From positions 1-36,143 of the forward strand of contig JBBTBY010000049.1 in assembly GCA_038043445.1 (NCBI GenBank): a stretch of DNA of 36,143 nt, in the 5' to 3' direction. Below, in pieces: positions 1-19,233 of this stretch. Source of the stretch: Spirochaetota bacterium (lineage in GTDB: Bacteria > Spirochaetota > Brachyspiria > Brachyspirales > JACRPF01). The position numbers were made by a program, and so were the translations under genes. Each line of letters opens with the position of its first letter. The first letter of the stretch is position 1. Below the pieces are notes generated by a model. The model was not told the origin of the DNA and searched no databases. It was given only the letters and a program-made list of their open reading frames with translations.

Positions 1-158
1 ATGCGGCGGCCAGTTTCGGCGTCCGTGAGCATTTTATAATTCAATTCGACGTTAAATACCTTTTCACCGAACACATGGAGGAAGCGCCGATCCTGCGGCC
101 GCATCGAGCGCCATGCCACGCCGTTATGCGGTACGATGTCTGCAAATGTGCGTATCAT
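1..158 (-). CDS. Hypothetical protein, 5' part only (runs off the left edge)
   Basis: Minus-strand reading frame open from an ATG at 158 to the window edge, giving 52 residues (MIRTFADIVPHN...) with no stop. A strong GAGGAGG lies 7 bases upstream of the ATG, and the ATG overlaps the stop of the preceding gene as ATGA (158-155), so the two are translationally coupled. No family recognised; the visible part is soluble and basic. It belongs to the block of small overlapping genes typical of prophage or island DNA. Confidence 0.55.
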   Translation of the reverse strand, partial: MIRTFADIVPHNGVAWRSMRPQDRRFLHVFGEKVFNVELNYKMLTDAETGRR

Positions 159-316
159 ACGGCAGCCTCCTCGTCTCGATATTTCACCATTGCCTGGCAA
201 AGGCAATTGCCGTTGTATCCCGGTGCGCCGAGCGGCTGATAGCCCTCGCGGATTAAGTTCTGCGCGGCCTCCTCAATGCAGAGGCCTTGCACGATGCGAT
301 AGTCGATGACTTTCAT
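155..316 (-). CDS. DUF1737-like small protein (53 aa)
   Basis: The 53-residue product reads MKVIDYRIVQ, then an acidic helix with LIREGYQPLG, then a short loop and CQAMVKY. This order (a Y-R-V/I strand, a helix ending in GWQPLGG-like sequence, a final QAMV strand) is that of DUF1737 proteins, small single-domain proteins common in phages and bacteria and of unknown function. The ATG at 316 directly follows the stop of the upstream gene (TGA 319-317). Its own stop overlaps the next start by four bases. Start and stop are set by these couplings rather than by a strong ribosome site. The family call is from pattern only. Confidence 0.6.
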   Translation of the reverse strand: MKVIDYRIVQGLCIEEAAQNLIREGYQPLGAPGYNGNCLCQAMVKYRDEEAAV

Positions 317-520
317 TCAGTTTTCCTTGCCGGTTTTTTCACCGGTCTTTTTGGTTTTATTTTCAACCGCCGTCGAAACGGTGATTTGATTTTCTAACAT
401 TGCCCGCGCCAATAGCAAACGCAAGACATAGCTTTTCGAGCAAGCCAAACGCCGCGCCTGCTGCGTGAGGAATGCCCGTTGTTCATCGCCGATGCAAAAG
501 CGTTCGATTTTGTCTAGCAT
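317..520 (-). CDS. Ribbon-helix-helix-like DNA-binding protein (67 aa)
   Basis: Residues 4-42 show a short strand (IERFCIG), a helix (DEQRAFLTQQARRLA), a turn (CSKSY) and a second helix (VLRLLLARAML). This matches MetJ/Arc-type ribbon-helix-helix layout, in which a strand pair contacts DNA and the two helices dimerise. The tail is lysine-rich and disordered. AAGGTG lies 6 bases before the ATG. It is the first gene of the leftward operon and is divergent from the gene at 565 across a short AT-rich promoter region, the usual place for an autoregulating repressor. It could instead be an antitoxin, but no toxin partner is recognisable among the visible neighbours. The fold call is inference from sequence pattern. 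Confidence 0.6.
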   Translation of the reverse strand: MLDKIERFCIGDEQRAFLTQQARRLACSKSYVLRLLLARAMLENQITVSTAVENKTKKTGEKTGKEN

Positions 521-528
521 AGTTCACC

Positions 529-584
529 TTGAAAAATTCGTGTTTTCATGGCATAATTATAACCATGAACAAACCAACCAGCAA
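529..584. promoter_or_regulatory. Overlapping divergent promoters with candidate operator
   Basis: Rightward: TTGAAA (529-534), 17 bp, CATAAT (552-557), which puts the transcription start at about 564-565, the A of the downstream ATG. Leftward: TTGCTG (584-579), 17 bp, TATAAT (561-556), giving a leader of about 28 bases before the gene at 520. The two -10 boxes overlap. The stretch 549-567 reads ATGG, then the palindrome ATAATTAT, then CCAT, a near-dyad one base out of register. A ribbon-helix-helix protein encoded next door could block both promoters there. Boxes are read directly; regulation is inferred. Confidence 0.5.
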
Positions 585-1074
585 TTCTAAAAATACACGT
601 GTTACTAGAAAAAAAGCACAGCGCGGAAAAATCATCCGCACCGATGAAATCGATTTTAAATACGAATATCAAAACGGTAGAAACGTGCGCCGCGAGATCA
701 TTACTCCGGGTAATATTTCAAAAATGAAGTGTGCCAATTGCAATGAGTTTATTAATTTTACCGATAAAGACAATCCCCGAAATATGAAATTTTGTCCGCG
801 ATGTAGGGTGAAAATAAAGACGTTCGATGAACAGAAAAAAGATTATTTCGACAGGATAAACAACACGCAAAAAAAATGCGCTGTTTGCGAACGTGCTATA
901 CCCGGAACCTTTGTCCAAAACGAATCATCTAAAAAAATATATATTCCTTTCAAAATTGTAAAAAAGATAACGTTTCGGGGCGGGCGTACAAAAATATCGA
1001 CATGTAGTCCTGCATGCCGTAAAAAAAAGCATGATATGTCAATACGGCGTCAACAGAAAAGCAAGCAAGCATAA
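565..1074 (+). CDS. Double zinc-ribbon-like protein of unknown function (169 aa)
   Basis: A 169-residue, lysine- and asparagine-rich protein. The first cysteine set is C56-x2-C59 and C77-x2-C80 (KCANC, FCPRC), typical of a zinc ribbon. The second is C105-x2-C108 and C147-x3-C151 (CAVC, CSPAC), like a treble clef or FCS-type finger. The basic tail (RKKKHD, RRQQKSKQ) suggests nucleic-acid binding. The frame is open back to a TTG at 529, but those 12 residues would overlap the promoter, so ATG 565 is preferred. No Shine-Dalgarno is visible and the message may be leaderless. Its AT-rich codon use contrasts sharply with all neighbours and points to recent transfer. Confidence 0.7.
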   Translation: MNKPTSNSKNTRVTRKKAQRGKIIRTDEIDFKYEYQNGRNVRREIITPGNISKMKCANCNEFINFTDKDNPRNMKFCPRCRVKIKTFDEQKKDYFDRINNTQKKCAVCERAIPGTFVQNESSKKIYIPFKIVKKITFRGGRTKISTCSPACRKKKHDMSIRRQQKSKQA

Positions 1075-1127
1075 AATTTCCGTAAATTACAACGTTTTTC
1101 ATGCAAGGTCAACCGATTTCTAATCTG

Positions 1128-1331
1128 TCAACCGCATTTTTTCACGGGATTCGCGCTCTCGTTTTCGTCCTCGCTCTCGTCCGGCAGCTGTTCGAATTGT
1201 GCCAATATATTCGGCATGGCGCAATGGTCCGCACACGCGATATATTGCCGCTGCACCTCAGCGAACATTTCCAATTCGGCATAGATTTTCCCGGTAGTGA
1301 TATGCCGATATGTCGGCCTATGCGTTTTCAT
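1128..1331 (-). CDS. Hypothetical small protein (67 aa)
   Basis: The product starts MKTHRPTYRHI and ends in an acidic stretch (PDESEDENESANP). The ATG at 1331 overlaps the stop of the larger upstream gene as ATGA (1331-1328), and GAGGG lies 7 bases before it, inside the upstream gene. Such coupling supports real translation. Two internal cysteines and a histidine (CADHC) are not enough for a zinc-site call. No family recognised. It converges with the zinc-ribbon gene, separated by 53 bases. Confidence 0.5.
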   Translation of the reverse strand: MKTHRPTYRHITTGKIYAELEMFAEVQRQYIACADHCAMPNILAQFEQLPDESEDENESANPVKKCG

Positions 1332-2089
1332 AAATCGCCCTCGATTTTCGGATTGTGCCGCGTGGTGAATACTTCGCCCTGCTTGTCGAAACGAATGCCG
1401 CCGGGATTGGTGTTCTCAAAGCCCCGTCCGTAATAATGACGATACCCCGCCCGGCGCTTGGCATGAACACCTACCGGCACTACGACGACATGCCCGCCGC
1501 CTTTCCCTTTCATGACTTTGGCGTATGCACGTTCATCCTCGGTGCGGACCACACCGGCGATTTTCTTCGCTTCGCCTCGCGGCAGATCGTCCCGGTCGCT
1601 CACGGCCATATATACAGTCCGCTTTTCAAGCCCGGCACTCAGCTTTTTGACGTAGTGGTATGACAGGTGCAAATCATCGGCAAGCCGCCGCATATTTCGG
1701 AAATAGTGATGCATGAGCGCGCCCTGTACTATCGCCTTTTTAAATTCGGCGAGCGAGTGCATGCTGTGATCGGCAAGCTTTATGTAATCCCGTTCGATGC
1801 CCGCGCCGTACAGCTTTTCTAAAAGCACCTGGTCGCTGTGCGGAATAACGCTCAGTTCATCGTGATAGATGCACGTGTCATATAGTGCGCACTTTTTTTC
1901 GAGGCGAGAGCGCAGCTTGTGCTTGTCGTTCGAATAATCCAGCGCCGCCTTTTCGCTCAATAGCACGGCGATCTGAGATACAACCGCCCTGCCGGCACAA
2001 TACCGCGCAACAAGCTTGACAATCCAATACCGCCACCACGCATCGCTATCTTTTACGTAATTTTTTATAACACGTAGACTTATTTTCAT
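1328..2089 (-). CDS. Hypothetical protein, possibly DNA-binding (253 aa)
   Basis: The start at 2089 (MKISLRVIKNYVK) has AGGAG 9 bases upstream; an in-frame GTG at 2167 would add 26 residues but lacks a ribosome site. The middle has a helix-turn-helix-like stretch around 150-185 (NMRRLADDLHLSYHYVKKL), like a winged helix or sigma-type motif. The C-terminus is basic and rich in G, H and R. No family recognised. It leads the coupled pair with the 67-residue gene at 1128-1331. Length, strand and context suit an uncharacterised prophage or island gene. Confidence 0.6.
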   Translation of the reverse strand: MKISLRVIKNYVKDSDAWWRYWIVKLVARYCAGRAVVSQIAVLLSEKAALDYSNDKHKLRSRLEKKCALYDTCIYHDELSVIPHSDQVLLEKLYGAGIERDYIKLADHSMHSLAEFKKAIVQGALMHHYFRNMRRLADDLHLSYHYVKKLSAGLEKRTVYMAVSDRDDLPRGEAKKIAGVVRTEDERAYAKVMKGKGGGHVVVVPVGVHAKRRAGYRHYYGRGFENTNPGGIRFDKQGEVFTTRHNPKIEGDL

Positions 2090-2268
2090 GCTTGACCACT
2101 CCTGTAGTGCACCGTTGCGCCGCTCTCGGCGGCTGCACGGCGCCACATTAAATTTAAATTCCGCCACTTATAGCAGTGTTTTTTTATCCGCACATGAGCA
2201 TGCCGATTGCCGATACACACGCTCCGCCACTTTCTTCCCGGCCTGTCGGCCCGATATGGCGTGTGCAT
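2086..2268 (-). CDS. Possible small coupled ORF (60 aa)
   Basis: A 60-codon frame whose TGA overlaps the ATG at 2089 as ATGA, the same arrangement as the other genes of this block. The product is very basic (RADRPGRKWRS, RIKKH, WRRAAAES) with no recognised domain. No ribosome site precedes its ATG. A second frame (2374-2168) overlaps it and at most one of them is likely to be translated. Confidence 0.25.
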   Translation of the reverse strand: MHTPYRADRPGRKWRSVCIGNRHAHVRIKKHCYKWRNLNLMWRRAAAESGATVHYRSGQA

Positions 2269-2374
2269 CGGAGAGCGTAACCAGAAAGCCGCATCGATCG
2301 TGACCGCGTGCGAATTTCCCGTTGACGCCCCATTGACATTGTTGTGCGATTTTAAGAAGCGTTAAGCAACGCAA
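2168..2374 (-). CDS. Possible small ORF (68 aa), TTG start
   Basis: An open frame starting at TTG 2374 and ending with TAA at 2168. Its C-terminal half (SDAHAISGRQAGKKVAERVY) looks more protein-like than the alternative frame, with a plausible amphipathic helix and late cysteines (SACSCADKK). No ribosome site or ATG start is present, so it may be the decayed tail of a longer gene cut at the element edge. Unrecognised. Confidence 0.25.
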   Translation of the reverse strand: MRCLTLLKIAQQCQWGVNGKFARGHDRCGFLVTLSDAHAISGRQAGKKVAERVYRQSACSCADKKTLL

Positions 2375-2398
2375 AGCGAAATGCCGCTTCCTAAACTG

Positions 2399-2427
2399 TT
2401 GATTTTTAAACGAATCAAAGATATTCT
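2399..2427 (+). promoter_or_regulatory. Sigma-70-like promoter upstream of tRNA-Tyr copy and STAS gene
   Basis: TTGATT (2399-2404), 17 bp, TATTCT (2422-2427). Transcription would begin near 2434, 18 bases before the tRNA-like sequence, and could continue into the STAS gene at 2558. Confidence 0.5.
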
Positions 2428-2451
2428 ATGCGTTGTAAAGCAATCTAACGC

Positions 2452-2522
2452 GGACAAGTGTCCGGGAACGACTGTAAATCTGTCGGCTCCGGTCTTCGCA
2501 GGTTCAAATCCTGCCCTGTCCA
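2452..2522 (+). pseudogene. Defective tRNA-Tyr(GTA) copy, D-arm deleted
   Basis: The 3' half is a good tRNA-Tyr: anticodon loop CTGTAAA with GTA at 2474-2476, class II variable arm (2484-2497) with a short stem, T-arm GCAGG/CCTGC around TTCAAAT (2498-2514), acceptor strand CCTGTCC and discriminator A at 2522. The 5' half keeps GGACAAG, TG and TCC but goes straight to GGGAACGA, so the D-loop is missing. The anticodon stem (AACGA against TCTGT) has two mismatches and the acceptor one A-C mismatch. The total is 71 bases where about 85 are expected. CCA is not encoded. It marks the border between the accessory block and the core. Alternatives are an attachment-site duplicate left by integration, or an assembly deletion in a true tRNA gene. 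Confidence 0.6.
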
Positions 2523-2557
2523 CATACCCGCCAGATGCGCCAAGGAGGGAGTCCCTC

Positions 2558-2884
2558 ATGGAAACGATCAGAAAAGGGAATTACGTCATCCTCGTCGTCG
2601 ATACCGACCTTGTCGCCGACGATGCCATCATGACGTTCAAGGCAAAGCTCACCGATATCATCGCCACCGACGAAAAGGACATCATCCTCGATTTCGGGAA
2701 TGTACGCGCCGTGTCGAGCAGCGGCATAGGGAAGATACTTCTTCTCTATAAAAAACTGAAAGAGAAAAAAGGATCGATGGGTTTCGTCAATCTGCACCCG
2801 CAGATAGCCGAACTCTTCGATAAGCTCATGTTCCTCGACCTCTTTACGGTCTATGCATCCGCCAACGACATACCCGCCCGCTAA
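2558..2884 (+). CDS. STAS-domain protein (anti-anti-sigma or MlaB-like)
   Basis: A 108-residue single STAS domain. A strand (YVILVVDTD), a helix, then IILDFGNVRAVSSSGIGKIL at about 42-61 carry the family's serine loop before G-I-G (S53-S55), where SpoIIAA-type proteins are phosphorylated. AAGGAGG lies 7 bases before ATG 2558; the longer upstream frame runs through the tRNA copy and is rejected. SpoIIAA-like antagonists bind anti-sigma kinases; MlaB-like ones bind the MlaF ATPase. Here the convergent neighbour is MlaF-like and the stop codons overlap, so an MlaB-type role is possible. No kinase gene is nearby. Confidence 0.85.
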   Translation: METIRKGNYVILVVDTDLVADDAIMTFKAKLTDIIATDEKDIILDFGNVRAVSSSGIGKILLLYKKLKEKKGSMGFVNLHPQIAELFDKLMFLDLFTVYASANDIPAR

Positions 2885-3630
2885 TCGTTCACCACGATAG
2901 GACCGTCGGTCTTTCCGTCGATGAACTGACGGAGGAACGGGTCCTCCGTCCGCTGCAGTTCTTCCGAGGTGCCGCCCTCGATGATGCGCCCCTCATTGAG
3001 CATATAGACGCGGTCCGCCACGCGGAACACGCTCGTAATATCATGCGTAATGACGATGCTCGTTACACCGAGCTCGTTCTTCATCTTGACTATAAGATCA
3101 TCGATGACACGCGACATGATGGGGTCAAGCCCCGTCGTCGGCTCATCGTAGAGGAGTATCTCGGGATCGAGCGCTATCGCACGGGCCAGGCCCACGCGCT
3201 TACGCATGCCGCCGGAAAGATCGGCCACCGATTTCTCCTCGATGCCGGGAAGTCCCACGGAATGCAGAACATTGCTCGCTTTCTCGCGCATCTCATCCTC
3301 GGTCCTGCCCCCGATATTGCGCAGGCCGAACGTTACGTTCTCATAGACATTGAGAGAATCGAAGAGCGCCGCTCCCTGGAAAACCATCCCGAATTTCTTC
3401 CGTATACGCCCGAGACCATCCTCGCCCATGGCGGTGATGGATTCACCGTCGACAAGGATATCGCCGCTGTCGGGCTTGAGCAGACCGAGAATATGCTTGA
3501 GCAGCACGCTTTTCCCGCATCCTGAACGGCCTATCACGACCACCGTCTCTCCCTTCGGGACGGTCAGGGTCGCGCCGCGCAGCACTTCATGCGGACCGAA
3601 ACGCTTGTAGAGATCGCTGATTTCTATCAC
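2881..3630 (-). CDS. ABC transporter ATPase, MlaF-like
   Basis: A complete 249-residue nucleotide-binding subunit: Walker A GRSGCGKS near 33-40, the Q-loop MVFQGAALFDSLNVYENV characteristic of the MlaF/Ttg2A group, signature LSGGMRKRVGLARA, Walker B ILLYDEP, then the H-loop ITHD. MlaF proteins power phospholipid movement between the inner and outer membranes with permease MlaE and the MCE protein MlaD, neither of which is in this window. The GTG start at 3630 has AAGGAG 7 bases upstream. Its TAG stop shares bases with the TAA of the STAS gene. The exact substrate is not provable from the ATPase alone. Confidence 0.85.
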   Translation of the reverse strand: MIEISDLYKRFGPHEVLRGATLTVPKGETVVVIGRSGCGKSVLLKHILGLLKPDSGDILVDGESITAMGEDGLGRIRKKFGMVFQGAALFDSLNVYENVTFGLRNIGGRTEDEMREKASNVLHSVGLPGIEEKSVADLSGGMRKRVGLARAIALDPEILLYDEPTTGLDPIMSRVIDDLIVKMKNELGVTSIVITHDITSVFRVADRVYMLNEGRIIEGGTSEELQRTEDPFLRQFIDGKTDGPIVVND

Positions 3631-3646
3631 CTATGTCTCCTTCGTC

Positions 3647-3675
3647 ATGGTATGGTCAAGGGAATATTTTGTCAA
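3647..3675 (-). promoter_or_regulatory. Promoter of the MlaF-like gene
   Basis: On the minus strand TTGACA (3675-3670), 17 bp, TACCAT (3652-3647), about 16 bases before the GTG start at 3630. Confidence 0.65.
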
Positions 3676-3715
3676 TGCAGTGGTCCAGCACTATATAATG
3701 CATGCCCAAAAATAT

Positions 3716-3860
3716 CACGAAAGAGAATAGAACCACTGAGGGCACAGAGAAAAATATCGTACAATTCAAAAAACATATATACATATTCCACCCTGCTTCT
3801 ATCTCTGTATTCTCTGCATTTCTCTCCGTGATCTCTGTGGTTTCCTTTTCCTTATGTGAG
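3716..3860. repeat. CACAGAG-type inverted-repeat element, copy 1
   Basis: Imperfect palindrome. The left end runs CACGAAAGAGAA, AACCACTGAGG, CACAGAGA; the right end runs TCTCTGTGGTTTCC, CCTTATGTGAG. The two ends are rough reverse complements while the centre is AT-rich and unrelated. It is inverted relative to copies 2 and 3. With the two flanking promoters it fills the 302-base gap between the MlaF-like gene and pyrF; nothing else is seen there. Confidence 0.7.
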
Positions 3861-3881
3861 GAATTGGACAAACGAGGCGGA

Positions 3882-3910
3882 TTGACAAAATCCCTCCCGC
3901 GTGCTACCGT
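3882..3910 (+). promoter_or_regulatory. Promoter of pyrF
   Basis: TTGACA (3882-3887), 17 bp, TACCGT (3905-3910), 22 bases before the pyrF ATG and just outside repeat copy 1. Confidence 0.6.
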
Positions 3911-3932
3911 AGTAAGGATTGATGGAGGACAC

Positions 3933-4613
3933 ATGGACCGCATCATCTGCGCGCTTGACTGCAACACACTTGACGAAGTGAAACGCACGGTCGATACGCT
4001 CGGCAAAAATGTTTCCTGGTATAAGGTCGGGCTGCAGCTTTATCTCAGCGCCGGCAGCACAACGGTCTCATATCTCAAATCGATAGGGAAGAACGTTTTC
4101 CTCGACCTCAAATTCTTCGATATACCGAACACCGTCGGCCATGCGGTCGCGAACGCCTGCTCGCTCGGTGCCGATATGATGACGATACATGCGCTCGGCG
4201 GAAAAGCCATGGTCGCCGCTGCGGCGCAGTCGATACAGAAAGCGAATGCGAAGACGACGCTCCTTGCGGTAACGATACTCACGAGCGTCGATGAAGCGAC
4301 GCTTACAGGCGATATGGGACTGACACCGCCGATAGAACAGAACGTCACGAGGCTGGCAGCCATGGCCGTCGGGGCGGGGGCGACCGGCATAGTCTGTTCA
4401 CCGTTCGAGATAGCGTCCGTACGAAAAGCGGTCGGCACGGGACCGCGGATAGTCACTCCCGGGGTGCGCATGCCGGGGGAAAGCGCGCATGATCAGAAGC
4501 GTGTAGCCACACCCATGCAGGCGTTTGCCGACGGATGCGATTTTGTCGTCATGGGACGCTCATTGACTACGGCCGCAGACCCTGCCGCCGTCGTACGCGT
4601 GATAGAAGGCTGA
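3933..4613 (+). CDS. pyrF: Orotidine 5'-phosphate decarboxylase
   Basis: Converts OMP to UMP, the last step of de novo pyrimidine synthesis, in the cytoplasm. The 226-residue product is a typical short TIM barrel: strand 1 IICALDC with the first aspartate, then VFLDLKFFDIPNTV (about 50-63), which holds the catalytic D-x-K-x-x-D-I signature, and the phosphate-binding end VTPGVR and FVVMGRSL. ATG 3933 has GGAGG 4 bases upstream; the frame is open further back only because the repeat element happens to lack stops. It is a single gene convergent with the PD40 protein, 5 bases apart. No other pyr gene is present. Confidence 0.95.
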   Translation: MDRIICALDCNTLDEVKRTVDTLGKNVSWYKVGLQLYLSAGSTTVSYLKSIGKNVFLDLKFFDIPNTVGHAVANACSLGADMMTIHALGGKAMVAAAAQSIQKANAKTTLLAVTILTSVDEATLTGDMGLTPPIEQNVTRLAAMAVGAGATGIVCSPFEIASVRKAVGTGPRIVTPGVRMPGESAHDQKRVATPMQAFADGCDFVVMGRSLTTAADPAAVVRVIEG

Positions 4614-4618
4614 TCACC

Positions 4619-5719
4619 CTACTCACCCTTGACCTTTATGTCCTTCGACCTGGTATTGATGTCATCGACCGTGTTGTTTATCTTCTGAACGCGGCTCATT
4701 ATCGCATCGTATGCGGATTTCAGGTCATCATTGAACCGCGTCGGTGTCGGTCGCGACACGACAATGCTCGCATCGACCGTCGTTACTATCGTTTCAGAAC
4801 CGGGACGGAATCGCGGGTCCAATTTCACGCGGACGATGTCTCCCTTTCCCATGGAGTTCTTGTAGGATACGACATATGCATACTCCCCCCCTCTATCGGT
4901 GGAGAAATATCCCTCCCAGCCGTCGGTATTTATCGGCGCACCGAGATTGACCGGCGGCGACCATCGACGCCAGGTATCGTCGAGTCTCTTCGTCATGAAG
5001 ATATCATAATTGCCATTGCGATCGCTCGCAAAATAGAGCGTCCGTCCGTCAGCGGCAAAGAACGGCGTGATGTCGTTGAATTCGGAATTGACCGTTGACC
5101 CGAGGTTGCGCGGTGCCGTCCATTCGCTGTTGCTCAAATGACTGACGTATAACTCAAAGCGTGCTTCCTCTTCACTGAAGATGGACAACAGAAGTGTCAC
5201 CCCGTCGGCGGCAAGGAATGCCGTCGGCACCCGTTTCGTGGATACTGCGAGCACATCGGCGGTCGACGAGGCCCCGGCGGACGATAGCAGCGCATCATAG
5301 GAACGTATCGGCAGTTTGACCGGCCTGCCCCAGCCGCCTTCATTTGTAGAGCGTGTTATCAGTGAAAATCCCGCCCCGTCGAAACCGGACGAAGTCTCCG
5401 AACCGCTGATGAGTATCGATCTTCCGTCGGCCGTCATGCCGTGCATCATGTTCACGCCCGACCGCAGATTGAACGGCGCAGGCATATCGATGGCCCGTTC
5501 CCATCCTTGCGCGCTGCGCTGGGACATCATGATGCGGTATGACGTGCTCGTGCGATTATCATCGCGGTTCCCGCGTATGAAATACAGCGTTTTTCCATCG
5601 GGGCTGATGACCGGTGCAAGCTCATCGTAGCGCGTATTGATGGCCTCGCCGAGGTTCTCCATCGGCTGCTGGGCAAAGCATGGGAATATGCTTACTATGA
5701 GAAGCAACGCTCTTTTCAT
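4619..5719 (-). CDS. Exported PD40/TolB-like beta-propeller protein 1
   Basis: A 366-residue protein with a signal peptide (MKRALLLIVSIFPCFA, cleavage near QQP). It then has PD40-type repeats: APVISPDGKTLYFIRG (about 35-50), a weaker middle one, and ITPFFAADGRTLYFASDRNG near 215-235, followed by YDIFMTKR and a W-rich loop. The last 40 residues form a conserved helix segment (FNDDLKSAYDAIMSRV...VDDINTRSK). Such WD40-like propellers act in the periplasm, usually as binding scaffolds. It is a clear paralogue of the gene at 6906-8033, with the same repeat layout and the same C-terminal helix. It has its own promoter. Specific role unknown. Confidence 0.85.
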   Translation of the reverse strand: MKRALLLIVSIFPCFAQQPMENLGEAINTRYDELAPVISPDGKTLYFIRGNRDDNRTSTSYRIMMSQRSAQGWERAIDMPAPFNLRSGVNMMHGMTADGRSILISGSETSSGFDGAGFSLITRSTNEGGWGRPVKLPIRSYDALLSSAGASSTADVLAVSTKRVPTAFLAADGVTLLLSIFSEEEARFELYVSHLSNSEWTAPRNLGSTVNSEFNDITPFFAADGRTLYFASDRNGNYDIFMTKRLDDTWRRWSPPVNLGAPINTDGWEGYFSTDRGGEYAYVVSYKNSMGKGDIVRVKLDPRFRPGSETIVTTVDASIVVSRPTPTRFNDDLKSAYDAIMSRVQKINNTVDDINTRSKDIKVKGE

Positions 5720-5751
5720 ATCACCGTCTTCGCAGCGTTTTTATCAATACT

Positions 5752-5780
5752 GTAATAATGCGGTATCGATGGAAAGTCAA
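5752..5780 (-). promoter_or_regulatory. Promoter of PD40 protein 1
   Basis: On the minus strand TTGACT (5780-5775), 17 bp, TATTAC (5757-5752), with a leader of roughly 26 bases containing GGTGAT before ATG 5719. Confidence 0.55.
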
Positions 5781-5813
5781 CCGATCTCCCGGTCACTCCC
5801 ATTATCGGCATCG

Positions 5814-6881
5814 CTACAGCACTATCCTGTCGGCAGGCGTAGTGTTTATCGATGCCCCGCCGTTCTTCGTCACAATGACCATGTTCTCGATGCGGATACC
5901 GCCCGTCCCCGGTATATACACGCCCGGCTCTATGGTCACCACGCTCCCCCCCTTGAGCGCTGCAATACCGCCGCGTTCGGAGACGGTCGGCGCCTCATGT
6001 ATCTCCACACCGACACCATGGCCGAGCCCATGCCCGAAATAGGCGCCGAGCTTGTGCGCTGCAAGCACGGAGCGGGCCGCTGCATCGACATCGGCGGCAC
6101 GTGCATTGGTCGCTGCTGCGGCTATGCCTGCTTCCTGTGCCTCACGGACAGCATCATATAGTTTCGCGAGCTTCGCATATGATCTCCCTTTTCCGAAGAA
6201 GAACGTCCTCGTGGTATCCGTGCAGTACCCGTTGCGCCGCATGCCGAAATCGATGAGCACCATGTCGCCGCGGGTAAGACGGGCGTCCGACGGCACGCCG
6301 TGCGGCATCGAGGTACGCACGCCGAAGAGCACTATCGTCTCGAACGACGACGCATCCCCGCCCTCGGAGCGCATGCGGTAGTCGAGTTCCGCGGCGAGCT
6401 CTTTTTCGGTCATATCTTCCTTCACGAACGCGAGCGTTCTTGTGAACGCTGTTTCCGCCAAAAGGAGATTCTCCTTTATCAGCGCACGTTCTGCATTGTC
6501 CTTCACTTCACGGAATTGCTTGATACAGTCATCTACGAACGCAACGGCAATGCCGGGCGTACAGGCCTCGGTGAACGATTCACCGCTTCGTATCGACACC
6601 CCGTTATCGAGCGATACTTTCCCGACACCGTTCCCGGAGAGGAAACGCGCGATACCGACGTCGTAATCGCCGGAAATAAGAACGGCCTTCGCCGAGGGCA
6701 CGGTCGCTGCTGCATGCTCGTAATATCGGGCGTCGACGAAAAGAAAGGCGCCGTCACGGGTGATGAGCAGTCTCCCGGCGCTCCCGGAAAATCCGGTGAG
6801 ATAGAAGATATGATGATGATCGGTCACAAGGAGCGGGAGTTCGCATACGCCGCGAACCTTTTCTATCCGTTCATTGTGCAT
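5814..6881 (-). CDS. M24B aminopeptidase (Xaa-Pro aminopeptidase/prolidase type)
   Basis: A 355-residue metallopeptidase of the pita-bread fold that removes N-terminal residues before proline. The N-terminal creatinase-like domain (1-125) contains YLTGFSGSAG. The catalytic domain shows all five metal ligands: D211 and D222 (LIDFG, CTDTTR), H288 in GHGLGHGVG, E318 in TIEPGVY, and E332 in RIEN. No signal peptide, so cytoplasmic. It lies 24 bases after the stop of the PD40 protein 2 gene and is probably cotranscribed with it. Substrate preference (aminopeptidase versus dipeptidase) cannot be read from the sequence. Confidence 0.93.
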   Translation of the reverse strand: MHNERIEKVRGVCELPLLVTDHHHIFYLTGFSGSAGRLLITRDGAFLFVDARYYEHAAATVPSAKAVLISGDYDVGIARFLSGNGVGKVSLDNGVSIRSGESFTEACTPGIAVAFVDDCIKQFREVKDNAERALIKENLLLAETAFTRTLAFVKEDMTEKELAAELDYRMRSEGGDASSFETIVLFGVRTSMPHGVPSDARLTRGDMVLIDFGMRRNGYCTDTTRTFFFGKGRSYAKLAKLYDAVREAQEAGIAAAATNARAADVDAAARSVLAAHKLGAYFGHGLGHGVGVEIHEAPTVSERGGIAALKGGSVVTIEPGVYIPGTGGIRIENMVIVTKNGGASINTTPADRIVL

Positions 6882-6905: not shown

Positions 6906-8033
6906 TCACTTTGCGGGCACGGGCGGGATATCGGACGGGACCTTTATGACAGCGGCCTTCGAGTTGATATCATCGACCGATGTGTTTATCGACTTGACCT
7001 TTCGCATCATCTCGTCGTAGGCGGATTTCATATCGTCATTGAAGGTGAACGCTGGCCGCGCCACCGTCGCGGTCGTCGTCGATACGATGCGCGGCGCTTC
7101 AATGACGATGGGCGCTGACGTCGGCGCCTTGGGCCGCATCTGTTCGGTCATCTTCACTCGTACGATATCTCCCCGGCCGTAGCTGTTCTTATACGATACG
7201 ACATAGCCGTACTCGCCTTTCGCATCGATGGAAAAGTACGCCTCCCAGCCGGTCGTATTGATCGGCGGACCGACACTGACCGGGGGGGACCAGCGGCGCC
7301 ATGAATTGTCAAGACGCCGGCTCATGAAAATATCGAAGTTGCCGTCCCTGTCGCTCGCAAAATAGAGCGTCTGCCCGTCGGCAGCGAGGAACGGGGTGAT
7401 CTCCTCGGAATCCGAATTTATCATGAGACCGAGCGATCGCGGGCGAGAGAATGAATTATTGCTCCACGTACTCACAAAAAGGTCATTGCCGTATTCTTCC
7501 TGCTCCTTGTAGGAAATGATGAGCGTACGTCCGTCATTCCAGAGGAAGGCTGTGTTCTTCTGCCGCTGACCGCCGCTTAATCCGGCTATCATGAGATAGC
7601 TCGTCGCCTGCTGCCAGGAAAAACTGTCGATCTTGACTTCCTGCGGCTTGCTCCATACACCGCCGACATTCTCCACAAGCGAGCACCCCGGGCCGCGATA
7701 ATTACCGTTGGAATAGGAGCCGAGGACAAGGAGCTTTTTTCCGTCCGGGGTAGCACTGAACACGGCATTGTAGGGCTGCGTGTTGAACGGGAACGGCATC
7801 TCCTCCGCCTGCATCCAGCCGCTCGAAAGCAGCCGCGAGGAGAATATCTTGTATGCCGTACTCGGGCTCGCGGCATCGGCCCGGTCGCCGCGTATGAAGA
7901 ACAGTGTCTTCCCGTCGTATGAAATGACCGGCGCCAATTCGTCGAACGCCGTGTTGATGTTCACACCGAGGTTCTCGATCTGTGCGAACGCCGCTATGGA
8001 GAGCGCCAATATCATGGAGAACGCATATTTCAT
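6906..8033 (-). CDS. Exported PD40/TolB-like beta-propeller protein 2
   Basis: A 375-residue protein with a signal peptide (MKYAFSMILALSIAAFA, cleavage before QIENLG). It shares with the 4619-5719 gene the opening ENLG-x-x-INT-x-x-DELAPVIS, the repeat ITPFLAADGQTLYFASDRDG, the stretch WRRWSPPV and the C-terminal FNDDMKSAYDEMM helix. ATG 8033 begins the signal peptide; a GTG 18 bases upstream is in frame but has no ribosome site. The tail ends in a proline-rich VPSDIPPVPAK. The two propellers probably arose by duplication. Function unknown; a periplasmic binding or scaffold role is inferred. Confidence 0.85.
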   Translation of the reverse strand: MKYAFSMILALSIAAFAQIENLGVNINTAFDELAPVISYDGKTLFFIRGDRADAASPSTAYKIFSSRLLSSGWMQAEEMPFPFNTQPYNAVFSATPDGKKLLVLGSYSNGNYRGPGCSLVENVGGVWSKPQEVKIDSFSWQQATSYLMIAGLSGGQRQKNTAFLWNDGRTLIISYKEQEEYGNDLFVSTWSNNSFSRPRSLGLMINSDSEEITPFLAADGQTLYFASDRDGNFDIFMSRRLDNSWRRWSPPVSVGPPINTTGWEAYFSIDAKGEYGYVVSYKNSYGRGDIVRVKMTEQMRPKAPTSAPIVIEAPRIVSTTTATVARPAFTFNDDMKSAYDEMMRKVKSINTSVDDINSKAAVIKVPSDIPPVPAK

Positions 8034-8074
8034 TGCTTTTCCGCTGTGCACCTGCAGGCCATCATCATGCCATA

Positions 8075-8164: not shown

Positions 8165-9217
8165 CTATCCGATGTCGGCTATTGCGGAAATAAGGGCGTC
8201 ATTCTCTCGGCGAGCGCCTATGGTGATGCGTACAAAGTCCTTAAGGCGCGGAACAGGGAAATGCCTGATGAATATACCCCTTTCCTTGAGCGATAGATAC
8301 AGCTCGCGGGCCGAACGCGCCGGCGGTTTGGCAAGTATGAAATTCGAACGGGACGGCAGCACGGCGAAACCCCGGCGGACGAGGATGTCCGTCATGCGTG
8401 AACGCTCGGCACAGACAACGGCGGCGTTCTTTTCCATGTATGCGTAATCGTCAATGGCGGCAGCGGCGGCTATCTGCGAAAGGATATTGAGATTATAGGA
8501 GTCTTTCACCCGGTACAAGCCCTCGATAAGTGACGCGGATGCGAACGCATACCCGATGCGCATACCGCACAGCGAGAACGATTTCGAGAACGTCCGCGTT
8601 ACGATGAGGTTCTTCGCCTTCGCGATAAGCGGCAGAAGCGATGTACCCTCCCCGGCAAAGTCGATATACGCCTCATCGATGACGACAAGCCCGCGGAAAC
8701 GCGTTATGAACCCGGCAAGCCGCTCATACCCGATAAGGATGCCCGTTTGTGCGTTCGGATTGGCAATGAAGGCTGTCGATGTGCTCTTATTCGGGATGGC
8801 ATCGAGGTCGATGGTGAGGTCCGGGAGCGTCGGTATCACCCTGCAGGGAACACTGAAGCGCATCGCGAGCGTCCGGTAGAGCGTATACGTCGGATCGGTT
8901 ATCACGGCGAGATGTTTCGGCGATGCGAACGCGTTGAAGATATCGGCGAGTATCTCGTCCGAACCGTTGCCGGCATACACGTTCTCACGGGCGACGCCAT
9001 AGCGTGCGGCGATCTTCCCGCAGAGCATATCGGCATTGGGCGGCGGATAGAGCCGAAGGCGCCTGGGGTCGAAGGAGCGTATCGCTCGTACCGCCTTCGG
9101 CGACGGCGCGAACGGGCTTTCGTTCGTATTGAGCTTTATCACCTGTCCCGTTACGGCGGGCTGCTCACCCGGCACATACGGCGGAAGTTTTTTCAGCATC
9201 GTATTCCAGAATTTCAT
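8165..9217 (-). CDS. hisC: Histidinol-phosphate aminotransferase family enzyme
   Basis: A 350-residue class I/II PLP aminotransferase. HisC-group marks are the N-terminal YVPGEQP and IKLNTNESPFAPSP (28-40), YAGNGSDEIL near 81-90, ANPNAQTG (152-159), DEAYIDF (181-187) and the PLP lysine K212 in RTFSKSFSLCGMRIGY. In histidine synthesis it converts imidazole-acetol phosphate to histidinol phosphate. Relatives also transaminate aromatic amino acids, and the gene is not among other his genes here, so the physiological substrate is uncertain. ATG 9217 has AAGGAT 5 bases upstream. Confidence 0.88.
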   Translation of the reverse strand: MKFWNTMLKKLPPYVPGEQPAVTGQVIKLNTNESPFAPSPKAVRAIRSFDPRRLRLYPPPNADMLCGKIAARYGVARENVYAGNGSDEILADIFNAFASPKHLAVITDPTYTLYRTLAMRFSVPCRVIPTLPDLTIDLDAIPNKSTSTAFIANPNAQTGILIGYERLAGFITRFRGLVVIDEAYIDFAGEGTSLLPLIAKAKNLIVTRTFSKSFSLCGMRIGYAFASASLIEGLYRVKDSYNLNILSQIAAAAAIDDYAYMEKNAAVVCAERSRMTDILVRRGFAVLPSRSNFILAKPPARSARELYLSLKERGIFIRHFPVPRLKDFVRITIGARRENDALISAIADIG

Positions 9218-9243
9218 CGCAGATCCTTATCGATACCGTTCTC

Positions 9244-9272
9244 AGTGTAGCGGCAAATCACAGGCAAGTCAA
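9244..9272 (-). promoter_or_regulatory. Promoter of hisC
   Basis: On the minus strand TTGACT (9272-9267), 17 bp, TACACT (9249-9244). The leader is about 20 bases and contains the AAGGAT ribosome site. Confidence 0.65.
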
Positions 9273-9292
9273 GCGATAATCCGCCCAACTTC

Positions 9293-9460
9293 TCACATAA
9301 AGTTAAAGAGAAACCACGGAGAAAAGGCTGAGAAAGCACAGAGAGGAGTTGAACATTTTCACCCGAAAGGTGAATACTGCTGCGCATTATCCTCCATATC
9401 TTTTCATTGTATTCTCTTTCATTCTCTCTGCGCCCTCTGTGGTTTTATTTTCTTACGTGA
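9293..9460. repeat. CACAGAG-type inverted-repeat element, copy 2
   Basis: The left end reads TCACATAAAG, AGAAACCACGGAG, GCACAGAGAGG; the right end reads CTCTGTGGTTTTATTTTC, TTACGTGA. Same termini and orientation as copy 3, with a different centre. It sits between the diverging hisC and beta-barrel-like gene promoters; the remainder of this 311-base gap shows only those promoters. Confidence 0.7.
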
Positions 9461-9493
9461 CAATTCGGGGGCCCTGCGATGCGGTTAGATGAA

Positions 9494-9522
9494 TTGCAGA
9501 AGCTCGACAAGTATGGTATAGT
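9494..9522 (+). promoter_or_regulatory. Promoter of the beta-barrel-like gene, apparently leaderless
   Basis: TTGCAG (9494-9499), 17 bp, TATAGT (9517-9522). The predicted start of transcription coincides with the ATG at 9529, and no Shine-Dalgarno sequence lies between. Confidence 0.6.
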
Positions 9523-9528
9523 GCGAGC

Positions 9529-10353
9529 ATGGCACTTCGAACATCCATCTGTGCGCTCTTGTCCGCAGCCGTGCTCCTCGCTTATCAGCCGCACTCGCCT
9601 GTCGCCGAGACGAATTTCATGACCATCGGCTTGGAAGCAGCGTATGGCGAATACCGCGGCTTCTTCGTAAGCGGAACGACCTATGTTCCCTACACCTATC
9701 TGGGGCAAAGCGATTCATCCTTCATGCACGTGCACATCAGCGGGATACCGAGCGTCCGCATAGCACCATTCAGGCATCTGGAAGCAAAACTCGAGCTTCC
9801 GATAAAATACACCTTCGAGCGCTATGAACACACCGCCGTAAGCTACAGTTCGAATATCATCTTTATCGAGCTTGAATCCGTACGATTGTCGATGAAATAT
9901 ACGCTTATCGACTGGTATCTCTCCGCAGCCCTGTCCCTCGCCTGCGATATTCCGGTGCACTCTACTGCCATGTTCGACGGCAACCGAACGGTGAACGATG
10001 CCCTCAATGTCACCGGCGGCGTGCTTGGCGGCGTCATACCGCGTGTGATACCGATCAACCTGTACGTCGGGCTTTACGGACGGACAAAACCCGGCTTAAG
10101 CGACAAATATCTCGCAACGGCCGTGCTTGAGTGGGTCACATCGCCTATTGCCGCGATATCACTCGGTGTGCGCAATGACAACAATTGGACGTTCAATTCC
10201 AGCGTCGGCAGCTTCGTCGAGCTCTTCGTCGATGTCGGCATCAATTTCAGCGACCGCATACACTGCCACACCGGCTTCTCGAAAAAGCTCGAAGGCATCG
10301 TTACGGCGGACGATCGGGTATTCTCGCTCAGGTTCTACTACGATATCTTCTGA
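9529..10353 (+). CDS. Exported outer-membrane beta-barrel-like protein (274 aa)
   Basis: The N-terminus (MALRTSICALLSAAVLLAY) is a signal peptide. The rest has many short alternating strands with aromatic ends (LEAKLELPIKYTFERY, VRLSMKYTLIDWYLSAAL, INLYVGLYGRTKP, RVFSLRFYYDIF). It ends in phenylalanine, as expected for a protein inserted by the BAM complex. No conserved domain recognised; a porin-like or structural role is possible. It is preceded by a good promoter and no ribosome site. It converges with the DUF4349 gene 5 bases away. Confidence 0.75.
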   Translation: MALRTSICALLSAAVLLAYQPHSPVAETNFMTIGLEAAYGEYRGFFVSGTTYVPYTYLGQSDSSFMHVHISGIPSVRIAPFRHLEAKLELPIKYTFERYEHTAVSYSSNIIFIELESVRLSMKYTLIDWYLSAALSLACDIPVHSTAMFDGNRTVNDALNVTGGVLGGVIPRVIPINLYVGLYGRTKPGLSDKYLATAVLEWVTSPIAAISLGVRNDNNWTFNSSVGSFVELFVDVGINFSDRIHCHTGFSKKLEGIVTADDRVFSLRFYYDIF

Positions 10354-10358
10354 GAGTA

Positions 10359-11288
10359 CTACTTCTTCTCGAGCGCATGCTTTATCTTTTCAAATATCCA
10401 TTTCGACTTGTCAACGAGCACGGCACAGATAAGTATCGACAATGAGGCGAAGAAGACTATCAACGTGATGGCCGCATATGTCTTGGCGCTCCAGGAAAGG
10501 GCATGCAGGCAATGCTTGACGAATGACGCGCGTGCCGTACGCACTTCGGAGAACGACACCTTTATCGTGCACAGTTCGTTCTCTTCCGCATAGTCGCCGA
10601 GCGTCACGCCGAGGGACTGTATCTGATTCTCCACTTCGAGTATCTGCTTTTCCAGATCGATGAATTCCTTCACCGTACCGCCCTTCCCTTTCAGCGCCAT
10701 GAGCGAGGTATGCATCGCGAGGAGCGCCCTGCGTTTCGCGCTCGTTTCCTTGAACTCGCTCGTGCGGTCGAATTTATTGACCTCGAACGAGACCACGGTG
10801 CCGATCTTCCGGACATCCTCAACCATGGAGTCGAAACGCTCGGGGAGCACGCCGATGGACAGCGAAAGAAAACGCGAACCCTTCAATCCTGAGTTCTGCT
10901 CGAACTGGACGACGGCATTGTACGTTGCGATGTTCGTACGCATCTCGCGTTCATTGCGGTCAAAGTCGGACGTATGGCTTGCTATCGATGCAACGCGCTC
11001 ATATTTCTGATCGATGTTGACGAATGATACATCGGCACTTTCTTTTTTTATCTGCTTCTTGTACGTGGCGATATTTCGCTTGGATGAATAGCCGCCCGAT
11101 GACCCTTCCGGGGCGTTCATGGCGTTCTGCTGATACTCCTGCTGCACGGCACGGCCGTAGGTCCGGCCGCTCGAGTTGTAGGTATAGCGGAGCTCCCCCG
11201 ACGCATAGCTGTAGATGAGCCGAAGCGCAGAGAACAACACGAACACGCCGGCATAGATGATAAGACCTGTGATGATCTTCTTACGCAT
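10359..11288 (-). CDS. DUF4349-type membrane protein (309 aa)
   Basis: Begins MRKKIITGLIIYAGVFVLFSAL, a signal anchor or first membrane segment. A long exported region follows: a strand pair, LSIGVLPERFDSMVEDVRKIGTV, then a coiled helix pair (AKRRALLAMHTSLMALKGK, EFIDLEKQILEVENQIQSLG). A last membrane segment (about 275-300, TYAAITLIVFFASLSILICAVLV) and a basic tail end the protein. This layout is that of DUF4349 proteins, exported and membrane-anchored, of unknown function. GGAGGAG lies 4 bases before ATG 11288; a longer upstream frame would overlap hslV and is rejected. It is divergent from hslV. Confidence 0.8.
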   Translation of the reverse strand: MRKKIITGLIIYAGVFVLFSALRLIYSYASGELRYTYNSSGRTYGRAVQQEYQQNAMNAPEGSSGGYSSKRNIATYKKQIKKESADVSFVNIDQKYERVASIASHTSDFDRNEREMRTNIATYNAVVQFEQNSGLKGSRFLSLSIGVLPERFDSMVEDVRKIGTVVSFEVNKFDRTSEFKETSAKRRALLAMHTSLMALKGKGGTVKEFIDLEKQILEVENQIQSLGVTLGDYAEENELCTIKVSFSEVRTARASFVKHCLHALSWSAKTYAAITLIVFFASLSILICAVLVDKSKWIFEKIKHALEKK

Positions 11289-11303
11289 GATCTCCTCCGT
11301 TCG

Positions 11304-11332
11304 TTGACAAAATAGACGCTCCGCCATACTAT
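11304..11332 (+). promoter_or_regulatory. Promoter of hslVU
   Basis: TTGACA (11304-11309), 17 bp, TACTAT (11327-11332); transcription should start near 11339. A minus-strand TATAGT (11333-11328) with TTGTTT 16 bp upstream (11355-11350) could serve the DUF4349 gene, so the two -10 boxes would overlap. Confidence 0.7.
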
Positions 11333-11364
11333 ACGTCACCGCAATGAAAAAACAAGGGAAGATG

Positions 11365-11895
11365 ATGTTCCGATCGACGACCATTTGCGCTGTCAGGCGT
11401 GATACACGGGTAGCCGTTGCCGGCGACGGCCAGGTGACCATGGGGAATACCGTGGTAAAGAACGGCGCAGTGAAGATACGAAAGCTTCACAAGGGCGCGG
11501 TAGTAAGCGGCTTTGCCGGGGCCACCGCCGATGCATTCACGCTGTTCGAGAAATTCGAAGGCAAGCTCGAGGAATATAACGGGGATATCACCCGTTCGGC
11601 CGTCGAACTCGCGCGTGATTGGCGCACCGACAGGATGCTCCGCCGCCTTGAGGCGCTGCTCCTCGTGGCGAACCGCGAGAAGATACTCCTCATCTCGGGC
11701 AGCGGCGACGTGATCGAACCCGACGACGATGTGCTCACGATAGGCAGCGGCGGCATGTACGCAAAAGCGGCAGCGGTGGCGCTCCTGGGGCACACAACGC
11801 TCAGCGCGGAAGAAATAGCGAAGCGCTCCCTCGAGATAGCATCGGAGATATGCATTTATACGAATAAGAACATCACCGTCGAGGTGCTGTCGTGA
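11365..11895 (+). CDS. hslV: ATP-dependent protease peptidase subunit HslV
   Basis: The proteasome-beta-like peptidase of the HslUV complex, degrading unfolded and regulatory proteins in the cytoplasm. The start chosen ([12 protein letters not shown]) leaves a short propeptide before the catalytic threonine that becomes the N-terminus (TTICAVRR). Family marks are [40 protein letters not shown] and EVIEPDDDV-like [14 protein letters not shown]. In-frame ATGs at 11344 and 11362 are also possible; AAGGGA at 11354-11359 favours 11365. The stop region overlaps the hslU GTG by 4 bases, so the two are translationally coupled. Confidence 0.95.
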
Positions 11896-13247
11896 GCACC
11901 GACGGGCTTACACCGCGCGAGATAGTCAAAGCGCTCGATACCTATATCATCGGTCAGGAAGCGGCGAAAAAGTCGGTGGCGATAGCGCTCCGCAACCGCT
12001 GGCGCAGAAAGAAAGTGCCTCCGGAAATGCGCGATGAAGTGGCGCCGAAGAACATCATCATGATGGGCCCCACCGGCTGCGGCAAGACCGAGATAGCGCG
12101 CCGATTGGCGAAGCTCGTCAATGCGCCGTTCATCAAGGTGGAAGCGACGAAATATACCGAGGTCGGCTATGTCGGCCGCGACGTGGAATCGATGGTGCGC
12201 GATCTCGTCAACATCGCCATCAACGATGTGCGCTCCATCATGCTGAAGGACGTCGAGGCGAAAGCGAAGGAAATGGCCGAGGACCGCCTGCTGGAACTTA
12301 TCATCCCGTCGCTCAAACAGGAGAACGACGGCGCCGCTGCGAATGAATTGCCCGAAGAAGCGGAGAAAAAGCGCATTGTCCGCGAACAGCTCCGTGCCGA
12401 TCTCAAGGCCGGCAAGTATGAAAGCACCGTCGTCGAGATAAAGGTCAAGAACCAGCGCACGCCCATGGTGGAGATAATGCCGGGCATGAACCCCGAGGAT
12501 ATGGAAGCGTTCCAGTCCATGATCGGATCCATCGCCCCGCAGCGAAAAAAGACGAAGCACATGACGGTCGGTGAAGCACGGGACCATATCATCGAAGAGC
12601 TTTCCGAATCGCTCATCGATATGGATAAGGTCGTCGCCACCGCGCTTGAGAACGTACAGTCGATGGGGATAATCTTCCTTGACGAGATAGACAAGATCGC
12701 ATCCCCCGGGCGTGCGGACAGCCATGACGTTGCGCGCCACGGCGTTCAGCGGGACCTTCTGCCCATCGTAGAGGGAACGAGCGTTACCACACGCTACGGC
12801 GTGGTGAAGACCGATCATATACTGTTCATCGCCGCCGGTGCGTTCCATCACACGAAGCCCTCGGACCTCATCCCGGAGCTGCAGGGGCGCTTCCCCATAC
12901 GCGTCGAACTGAAGGCGCTCACGCAGGACGATTTCAGGCAGATACTCACCCAGCCGAAGAACGCGATAACCCGGCAGTATGCGGAGCTCTTAAAGACAGA
13001 GTCGGTGAAAATATCGTACGCTGATGAGGCCATCGACTATATCGCCGCGCTCGCGTTCGAGGTGAACAGCAACACCGAGAATATCGGCGCTCGAAGGCTG
13101 TCGACGATAATGGAAAAGATACTCGAGGAACTTTCGTTCGATGCGGATGCGAACGCGGGAAAGAACATCACCATTGATAAGGCTTATTGCCAGGAACGGC
13201 TGAAGGATATCGTGACGAACAAGGATCTGAGCAGATATATTCTGTAG
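11892..13247 (+). CDS. hslU: ATP-dependent protease ATPase subunit HslU
   Basis: The AAA+ unfoldase that feeds HslV. A complete 451-residue protein: N-terminal [17 protein letters not shown], Walker [16 protein letters not shown] (about 57-71), pore-loop region [17 protein letters not shown], intermediate I-domain about 110-235 ([15 protein letters not shown]), Walker [10 protein letters not shown], sensor region [23 protein letters not shown], and the C-terminal DLSRYIL tail that docks into HslV. The GTG start overlaps the end of hslV. Together the pair forms a two-gene operon from the 11304 promoter. Confidence 0.97.
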
Positions 13248-13252
13248 GATGA

Positions 13253-13286
13253 TCCGCAGGCGGGGTCACGCGACCACGCCTCCGGA
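13253..13286. terminator. Strong hairpin between convergent hslU and carboxynorspermidine synthase genes
   Basis: Arms of 15 bases around an ACGC loop pair with two mismatches (TCCGCAGGCGGGGTC against GACCACGCCTCCGGA). It sits 6 bases after the hslU stop and 9 bases from the opposing stop. No U-tract follows it in either direction, so it is a probable bidirectional barrier but not a textbook intrinsic terminator. Confidence 0.5.
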
Positions 13287-13295
13287 TTAAAAAAG

Positions 13296-14498
13296 CTATT
13301 CTATCGCCGCTGCCCAATCCACCGTCTTCCACCGCAGACCATATTTATTGAGGTCGTCCATCATAGGATCGGGATCGAGCTCTTCCATGTTGAGCACGCC
13401 CGCTTTTTTCCATACGCCCTGAAGCATGAGCTTAGCGCCTATCATCGCCGGAACGCCGGTGGTATATGATATCGCCTGCGCCTCCACTTCACGGTAGCAT
13501 TCCGCGTGATCGCAGACATTATAGATGAATTTGCGCAGCGCCTGTCCGTTCTTGACGCCTTCGATGACGCAGCCGATGCAGGTCTTGCCCGTATAGTTCT
13601 CAGCGAGCGAACCCGGGTCCGGGAGCACCGCCTTGAGGAATTGCAGCGGCACGATCTCCCTGCCCTGATACATGACCGGATCGATGCGCGTCATACCGAC
13701 GTTCTCCAGCACGCGCAGGTGCGTGAGATACTGCTCGCCGAACGTCATCCAGAAGCGAATACGCTTAAGCCCCTTGATGTTCTTCGCGAGCGATTCCAAT
13801 TCCTCGTGGTACATGAGGAACATCTTCTTAACGCCTACTTCGGGGAAATCGAAATCCCGGCTGACAGAGAGCGGATCGGTGAGCTTCCATTCACCGCCCT
13901 CGAAATAGCGGCCTTTTGCCGTGACCTCGCGGATATTGATCTCGGGATTGAAATTGGTGGCGAACGCCTTGCCGTGGCTCCCGGCATTACAGTCCACGAT
14001 GTCCACCGAATGTATCTCATCAAAATAATGCTTCTGCGCATACGCGCAGTAGACATTGGATACGCCCGGGTCAAAGCCGCTGCCGAGCAGCGCCATTATC
14101 TTTTTCTGCTTGAATTTCGAGCGATACGCCCATTGCCATTTATACTCGAATTTCGCCTTGTCTTTCGGCTCATAATTCGCCGTATCGAGATAATCGACAC
14201 CTGTTTTGAGGCAGGCTTCCATGATGGACAGGTCCTGATACGGGAGCGCGATATTGATGACGAGGGACGGTTTGTACTTCCTGATGAGCGCCGCCACTGC
14301 GGTGGGCGTGTCGGCATCGACCGCTGCCGTCGTGATGGTACGACCGTAGCGTTTTTTCACGCGAGCGGCGATCGCATCGCATTTCTTCTTCGTACGTGAT
14401 GCGAGAACGATACGCCCGAACACGTCGGGAAGCGATGCGCATTTCTGCGTCGTAACATTGCTTACGCCGCCGGCACCGATGATAAGCACCGTATCCAT
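13296..14498 (-). CDS. Carboxynorspermidine synthase (saccharopine dehydrogenase family)
   Basis: A 400-residue NAD(P)H-dependent enzyme that condenses aspartate semialdehyde with a diamine to form carboxynorspermidine or carboxyspermidine in the alternative polyamine pathway. A Rossmann start (VLIIGAGGVSNV), GFDPGVSNVYCAYAQ, VDIVDCNAGSHGK, FNPEINIREVTAKGRY, MYHEELESL, LENVGMTRIDP and the C-terminal SYTTGVPAMIGAKLM match that subgroup rather than lysine-forming enzymes. GAGGAGG precedes ATG 14498; the in-frame extension back to 14588 would cover the tRNA-Leu gene and is rejected. The decarboxylase partner (NspC) is not in the window. Confidence 0.88.
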   Translation of the reverse strand: MDTVLIIGAGGVSNVTTQKCASLPDVFGRIVLASRTKKKCDAIAARVKKRYGRTITTAAVDADTPTAVAALIRKYKPSLVINIALPYQDLSIMEACLKTGVDYLDTANYEPKDKAKFEYKWQWAYRSKFKQKKIMALLGSGFDPGVSNVYCAYAQKHYFDEIHSVDIVDCNAGSHGKAFATNFNPEINIREVTAKGRYFEGGEWKLTDPLSVSRDFDFPEVGVKKMFLMYHEELESLAKNIKGLKRIRFWMTFGEQYLTHLRVLENVGMTRIDPVMYQGREIVPLQFLKAVLPDPGSLAENYTGKTCIGCVIEGVKNGQALRKFIYNVCDHAECYREVEAQAISYTTGVPAMIGAKLMLQGVWKKAGVLNMEELDPDPMMDDLNKYGLRWKTVDWAAAIE

Positions 14499-14546
14499 AA
14501 CGCCGCCCTCCTCGCGCTCAAATCGTTGTAAAACACCGTCCAATTC

Positions 14547-14631
14547 TGCCGAAGACAGGAGTTGAACCTGCAAGAGCATTACACTCAACAGACCCTGAAT
14601 CTGCCGCGTCTGCCAGTTCCGCCACTTCGGC
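14547..14631 (-). tRNA. tRNA-Leu (anticodon CAG)
   Basis: Complete class II tRNA of 85 bases without encoded CCA. Acceptor GCCGAAG/CTTCGGC is fully paired, D-arm GCGG...(contains AACTGGCAGACGC), anticodon stem GCAGA/TCTGT around TTCAGGG with CAG at 34-36, long variable arm, T-arm GCAGG/CCTGT around TTCAACT, discriminator A. Reads CTG leucine codons. It lies 48 bases upstream of the carboxynorspermidine synthase start, on the same strand. Confidence 0.95.
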
Positions 14632-14653
14632 GATATCGTACGTTACTGCACGG

Positions 14654-14681
14654 ATGATACCAGATTTAACCGTCTTGTCAA
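14654..14681 (-). promoter_or_regulatory. Promoter of tRNA-Leu
   Basis: On the minus strand TTGACA (14681-14676), 16 bp, TATCAT (14659-14654), about 16 bases before the mature tRNA 5' end. It may also drive the dehydrogenase gene downstream. Confidence 0.65.
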
Positions 14682-14706
14682 GAATTTTCCCGAAAAAAAG
14701 CCGACA

Positions 14707-19016: not shown

Positions 19017-19233
19017 AAATCTCCGCGCTTCGGCAGGCTCAGCGGAGTGCCGCGCCGCTCAACGGCCCCGTTGACTGATAATACGACACCACGATGGCCC
19101 CACCAGTCGATGAAATGACGCTTTGTCTCACTGACACCTGCATGTTGTTCACAGGCACCTGTGCAAAGAGCTCACGGGCATCCTCAAATATTCATTCATC
19201 ATCAAAAATATCTCTGTCTTTTCTCCCCAACAA

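Follow-up and report, generated by a model that had tools for sequence, protein, structure and literature searches.

P4-like elements and PICIs occupy tRNA sites, carry int together with an AlpA/Cox-like excisionase, and are organized as compact co-directional operons. In the signature used by Islander, a 3' fragment of the tRNA gene lies downstream in the same orientation, and the repeat is centred on the anticodon (PMC4383910); the sizes of tRNA-integrated genomic islands peak at 13.6 and 39.9 kb (PMC4383910). The window analysed here comprises 36,143 bp and is the entire contig C49 of a 5.13-Mb assembly in 178 contigs, and its positions 2470-2525 are almost certainly the attR of a mobile element of 5,855 bp that is integrated in tRNA-Tyr. 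Like Islander-class islands (PMC4383910), this element has an intact tRNA at one end, a displaced 3' fragment in the same orientation at the other, and an integrase. The contig overlap places the intact tRNA gene and its cognate fragment on one replicon, with the 3' fragment downstream and similarly oriented; a tyrosine integrase gene lies between the two (C37:15975-17075), and the length of 5,855 bp falls within 2-200 kb; as support from outside the Islander criteria, the element is absent at the syntenic site in relatives. The arrangement is a tRNA-integrated genomic island with an anticodon-centred attachment site. At 5.9 kb, however, the element is below both size peaks of the Islander class (PMC4383910), and it differs from islands of that class in its orphan cargo and in its location in an uncultured spirochaete lineage. 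The element resembles P4-like elements and PICIs in its integration, but unlike them it has no recognised primase, terminase small subunit, capsid-remodelling or repressor gene.

The integration mechanism is textbook and the arrangement is classic and well known, and the mildly interesting features are limited to the small size and the orphan cargo. The locus is of modest use as a precisely defined case from a spirochaete lineage that has received little study, and it carries roughly a dozen small genes that are unclassified; a complete small island was closed from a fragmented genome, and both ends, the empty site and the likely integrase arm sites were defined.

A genome match revealed that window positions 2470-2525 (+ strand) reproduce, base for base over 56 bp, the 3' part of an intact tRNA-Tyr(GTA) on contig C37 (15815-15870, attL). 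This was the single other match genome-wide (56/56, E = 1e-22, with window 2430-2540 as the query against the 5.13-Mb genome). The repeat begins in the 5' strand of the anticodon stem (base 30) and ends 3 bp past the discriminator base; the last tRNA base of the fragment is 2522, and the homology extends to 2525. Neither ARAGORN nor the Rfam tRNA model called a tRNA gene at the window copy. An earlier sequence-only reading had described a defective tRNA-Tyr at 2452-2522, and the 56/56 identity to the intact gene confirms the 3' half that it reported, with its end at 2522. The left boundary at 2452 was misplaced, as 2452-2469 is element DNA with a tRNA likeness at chance level, and the supposed remnant of the 5' half there, GGACAagTGTCC at 2453-2464, belongs to the element stretch between arm site and core (2341-2469, no strand assigned; tRNA-likeness comparison). 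The mispaired anticodon stem pointed out in that reading is accounted for by its composition and not by decay of a tRNA, because its 3' strand derives from the tRNA, whereas its 5' strand is, in the outer part, element DNA.

The C37 copy lies inside an intact tRNA-Tyr(GTA) that was called by both ARAGORN and the Rfam model, and this gene is the sole tRNA-Tyr found, because Ser and Leu account for all the remaining long-armed (class II) tRNAs of the genome. An intact tRNA-Tyr(GTA) sharing the 3' end of the window copy had been anticipated elsewhere in the genome, and the one gene found has the identical 56-bp 3' end and a tyrosine recombinase directly behind it. This recombinase (366 aa, C37:15975-17075, minus strand) has SAM-like N-terminal and catalytic domains and matches Pfam Phage_integrase (E = 3e-23) and PHROG_1 integrase (E = 5e-54), and aligning it with five relatives showed its family active-site residues R203, H295, R298, H321 and Y330 to be invariant. 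The next gene after the integrase encodes a 72-aa HTH_17 excisionase-like protein (C37:17129-17347; PHROG_66 and PHROG_575, excisionase), and the frames of both genes are intact. Furthermore, the tRNA-Tyr retains its native promoter, a perfect TTGACA-16-TATAAT, with which the rebuilt tRNA-Tyr should, judging from the sequence, be expressed normally.

Contig C37 ends 3.3 kb further on, behind the tRNA-Tyr and integrase, and its last 18 bases (19201-19218) are the first 18 bases of the window (1-18, no strand assigned). This 18-mer has two occurrences genome-wide, at these contig ends, and none elsewhere, and a 182-aa open frame runs through the join, with its 5' part at window 1-158 (- strand) and its continuation on C37 (18810-19218) over the overlap. 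The unique overlap and the frame across the join allow the element to be closed, with 5,855 bp from one core start to the other, a size obtained from the 18-bp overlap and the continuous frame, not from reads. Thus, the suggestion that an element continues to the left of the window was borne out, as the contig with the intact tRNA-Tyr and the integrase abuts the left end of the window. It is very improbable that C37 and the window instead terminate a larger element whose middle lies on further contigs; the link between the two consists of just 18 bp, but the confinement of the 18-mer to these two contig ends and the uninterrupted 182-aa frame both speak for a direct join. One possible reason for the assembly break inside the element would be a population in which only some cells carry it.

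Comparison of repeats on the two sides of the core revealed a putative arm-type site of the integrase in the P arm, CCGTTGACGCCCCATTGACATT, at window 2319-2340 (+ strand). The P' arm copy at C37:15953-15974 is identical at 19 of the 22 positions, has the same orientation when the element is circularised, and abuts the integrase stop codon. The repeat has the form CCGTTGACGCC(CCA/ACG)TTGACATT in the P and P' arms and stands in the same register in both; the paired repeats look like integrase arm-type sites flanking the core. A 9-bp inverted pair at window 2428 and C37:15906 is weaker than the arm repeats and could be chance. No free attP form was found in the viral contigs searched, and a scan of the element end yielded no outward promoter driving the gene beyond it.

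This first chromosomal gene past the element, assigned from synteny and a family match, encodes a STAS-domain (anti-sigma-factor-antagonist-like) protein (2558-2884, + strand) and starts 36 bp after the tRNA fragment. A tRNA-Tyr directly precedes the STAS gene in the nearest relative, G001, and in six more distant members of the order. In G001, the one same-family relative compared, an intact tRNA-Tyr is followed after 126 bp by the STAS gene (55% identity) and then by an ABC ATPase gene (74% identity), in the order and orientation of window 2558-3630. The STAS gene starts 35 bp after tRNA-Tyr in a member of the sister family (G024), and five further members of the order display the same linkage with weaker STAS identity (24-29%). 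Within the stretches read, no integrase of this type was present at any of those seven tRNA-Tyr genes. The tRNA-Tyr/STAS arrangement in relatives is the empty site, and the insertion in this genome is the derived state, because the relatives have the arrangement without such an integrase. The gene-order comparison that had been proposed as a check therefore places the right-hand genes of the window directly behind an intact tRNA-Tyr.

The 56-bp repeat, the integrase beside the intact tRNA-Tyr, the abutting contigs and the empty sites in relatives all bear out the main proposal of the sequence-only reading, a distal attachment site, and its alternative, a decayed full-length tRNA-Tyr duplicate, is wrong. 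That alternative has next to no probability: GGACA beside the fragment resembles the first bases of the tRNA, but when the 44 bases left of the core were compared with the tRNA 5' half, 51% of random element 44-mers scored equally well, and 9% of random element pieces did so when the comparison was restricted to the first 10 bases. Because these 44 bases score like random element DNA, they give a decayed copy no support, and they are the attachment arm of the element. In addition, a decaying gene would show scattered changes, whereas the fragment is identical over its 56 bases and has a sharp end, and decay leaves the integrase, the arm repeats and the empty sites unexplained. A decayed full copy is thus ruled out by the 56/56 match, the arm repeats and the chance-level left part. 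For the attachment site, we propose that the tyrosine integrase of the element recombined attP with the chromosomal tRNA-Tyr, with the crossover most likely in the anticodon-loop region. On this reading, attP contains a tRNA 3' half of its own, so the tRNA gene beside the native promoter was rebuilt at the integrase end (attL, C37), and the original 3' half was displaced 5.9 kb downstream, to its present place 36 bp before the STAS gene that it formerly preceded.

The G+C content of the element is 0.50, compared to 0.55 in the flanks, and besides int and xis it carries roughly a dozen small orphan genes. The likely genes are on the minus strand, except for an AT-rich gene (565-1074, + strand, 169 aa; ORF and profile searches) with Cys-x2-Cys pairs (zinc-ribbon-like), which is the sole clear opposite-strand gene of the element. 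On the minus strand, ORF calls yielded an uncertain 68-aa frame with a TTG start (2168-2374), a 67-aa frame (1128-1331) whose start overlaps the end of a 279-aa orphan gene (1328-2167; family and relative searches) by 4 bp, and two frames of the element operon, of 67 aa (317-520) and 53 aa (155-316), the latter with a 4-bp overlap with the next gene. Several element genes overlap by 4 bp in this way, as in a translationally coupled operon. Searches of Pfam, PHROGs, NCBIfam and PADLOC, as far as they extended, returned no credible family match beyond int and xis. The 279-aa protein belongs to no family, and no relative turned up in 296 genomes of the phylum or in phage and plasmid records; its predicted structure (mean pLDDT 41) is too low in confidence to use; the 182-aa protein likewise had no relative in the 296 genomes, and neither protein had one in viral contigs, where short-pattern scans detect close relatives only. 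Ten element proteins gave no credible match to defence genes (DndE at E = 0.012 is too weak), and the element proteins searched in Pfam gave no match to relaxase or conjugation genes. No replication, packaging or conjugation gene was recognised in the element, and no primase, terS or similar gene was credible, which, as most element genes are orphans, means merely that none is recognisable. The excisionase-like HTH protein has a weak terS-profile match that is below its excisionase matches.

The element may at present be able to excise, and it may be transferred by a helper phage or another vehicle. It is rather unlikely that it is an old immobile island, left stranded after losing the ability to excise; such a remnant would agree with the lack of a recognised self-transfer, replication or packaging gene and of a second copy, in 296 phylum genomes, of the two cargo genes tested, but the int and excisionase frames are intact, the two att cores do not differ, and no frame break interrupts the several genes that overlap by 4 bp. 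We consider it improbable that this is a minimal phage satellite, still active and belonging to a new family in uncultured spirochaetes, that a helper moves via orphan proteins, such as the 279-aa protein, and not by known packaging genes.

The closest integrase (46% identity), with an excisionase-like gene (48%), was found in the same family in a tRNA-Met element of G001 (GenBank JACRPF010000021.1, Spirochaetes bacterium isolate NC_groundwater_1980), which was seen at positions 10554-16092 of locus L051 (G001:C21). Like the window element it adjoins a tRNA 3' end; however, it uses another tRNA and carries ParA- and ParB-like genes and a second recombinase as cargo, and the two elements have no cargo gene in common. 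Relatives of int and xis also occur in other spirochaete elements near other tRNAs (Met, Pro, Arg and Ser), and the integration module is therefore a lineage-wide type with exchanged cargo. For related elements in other genomes, including the tRNA-Met element of G001, the stretches examined did not contain the far ends. In another genome (positions 83-6140 of locus L057, G069:C3), two direct copies of a 45-bp sequence similar to a tRNA 3' end stand 6,012 bp apart. They bracket two recombinase genes, one of them for this type of integrase, and another related integrase follows immediately outside; this is possibly another small island of similar size in a tandem array. The genome of the window itself encodes another such integrase (38-40% identity; positions 9112-10538 of locus L052, G000:C28), which is preceded by an excisionase-like gene and has no tRNA in its vicinity. 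Elsewhere in the window, two PD40 beta-propeller-type paralogues (4619-5719 and 6906-8051, minus strand) are 49% identical, with a peptidase-like gene between them.
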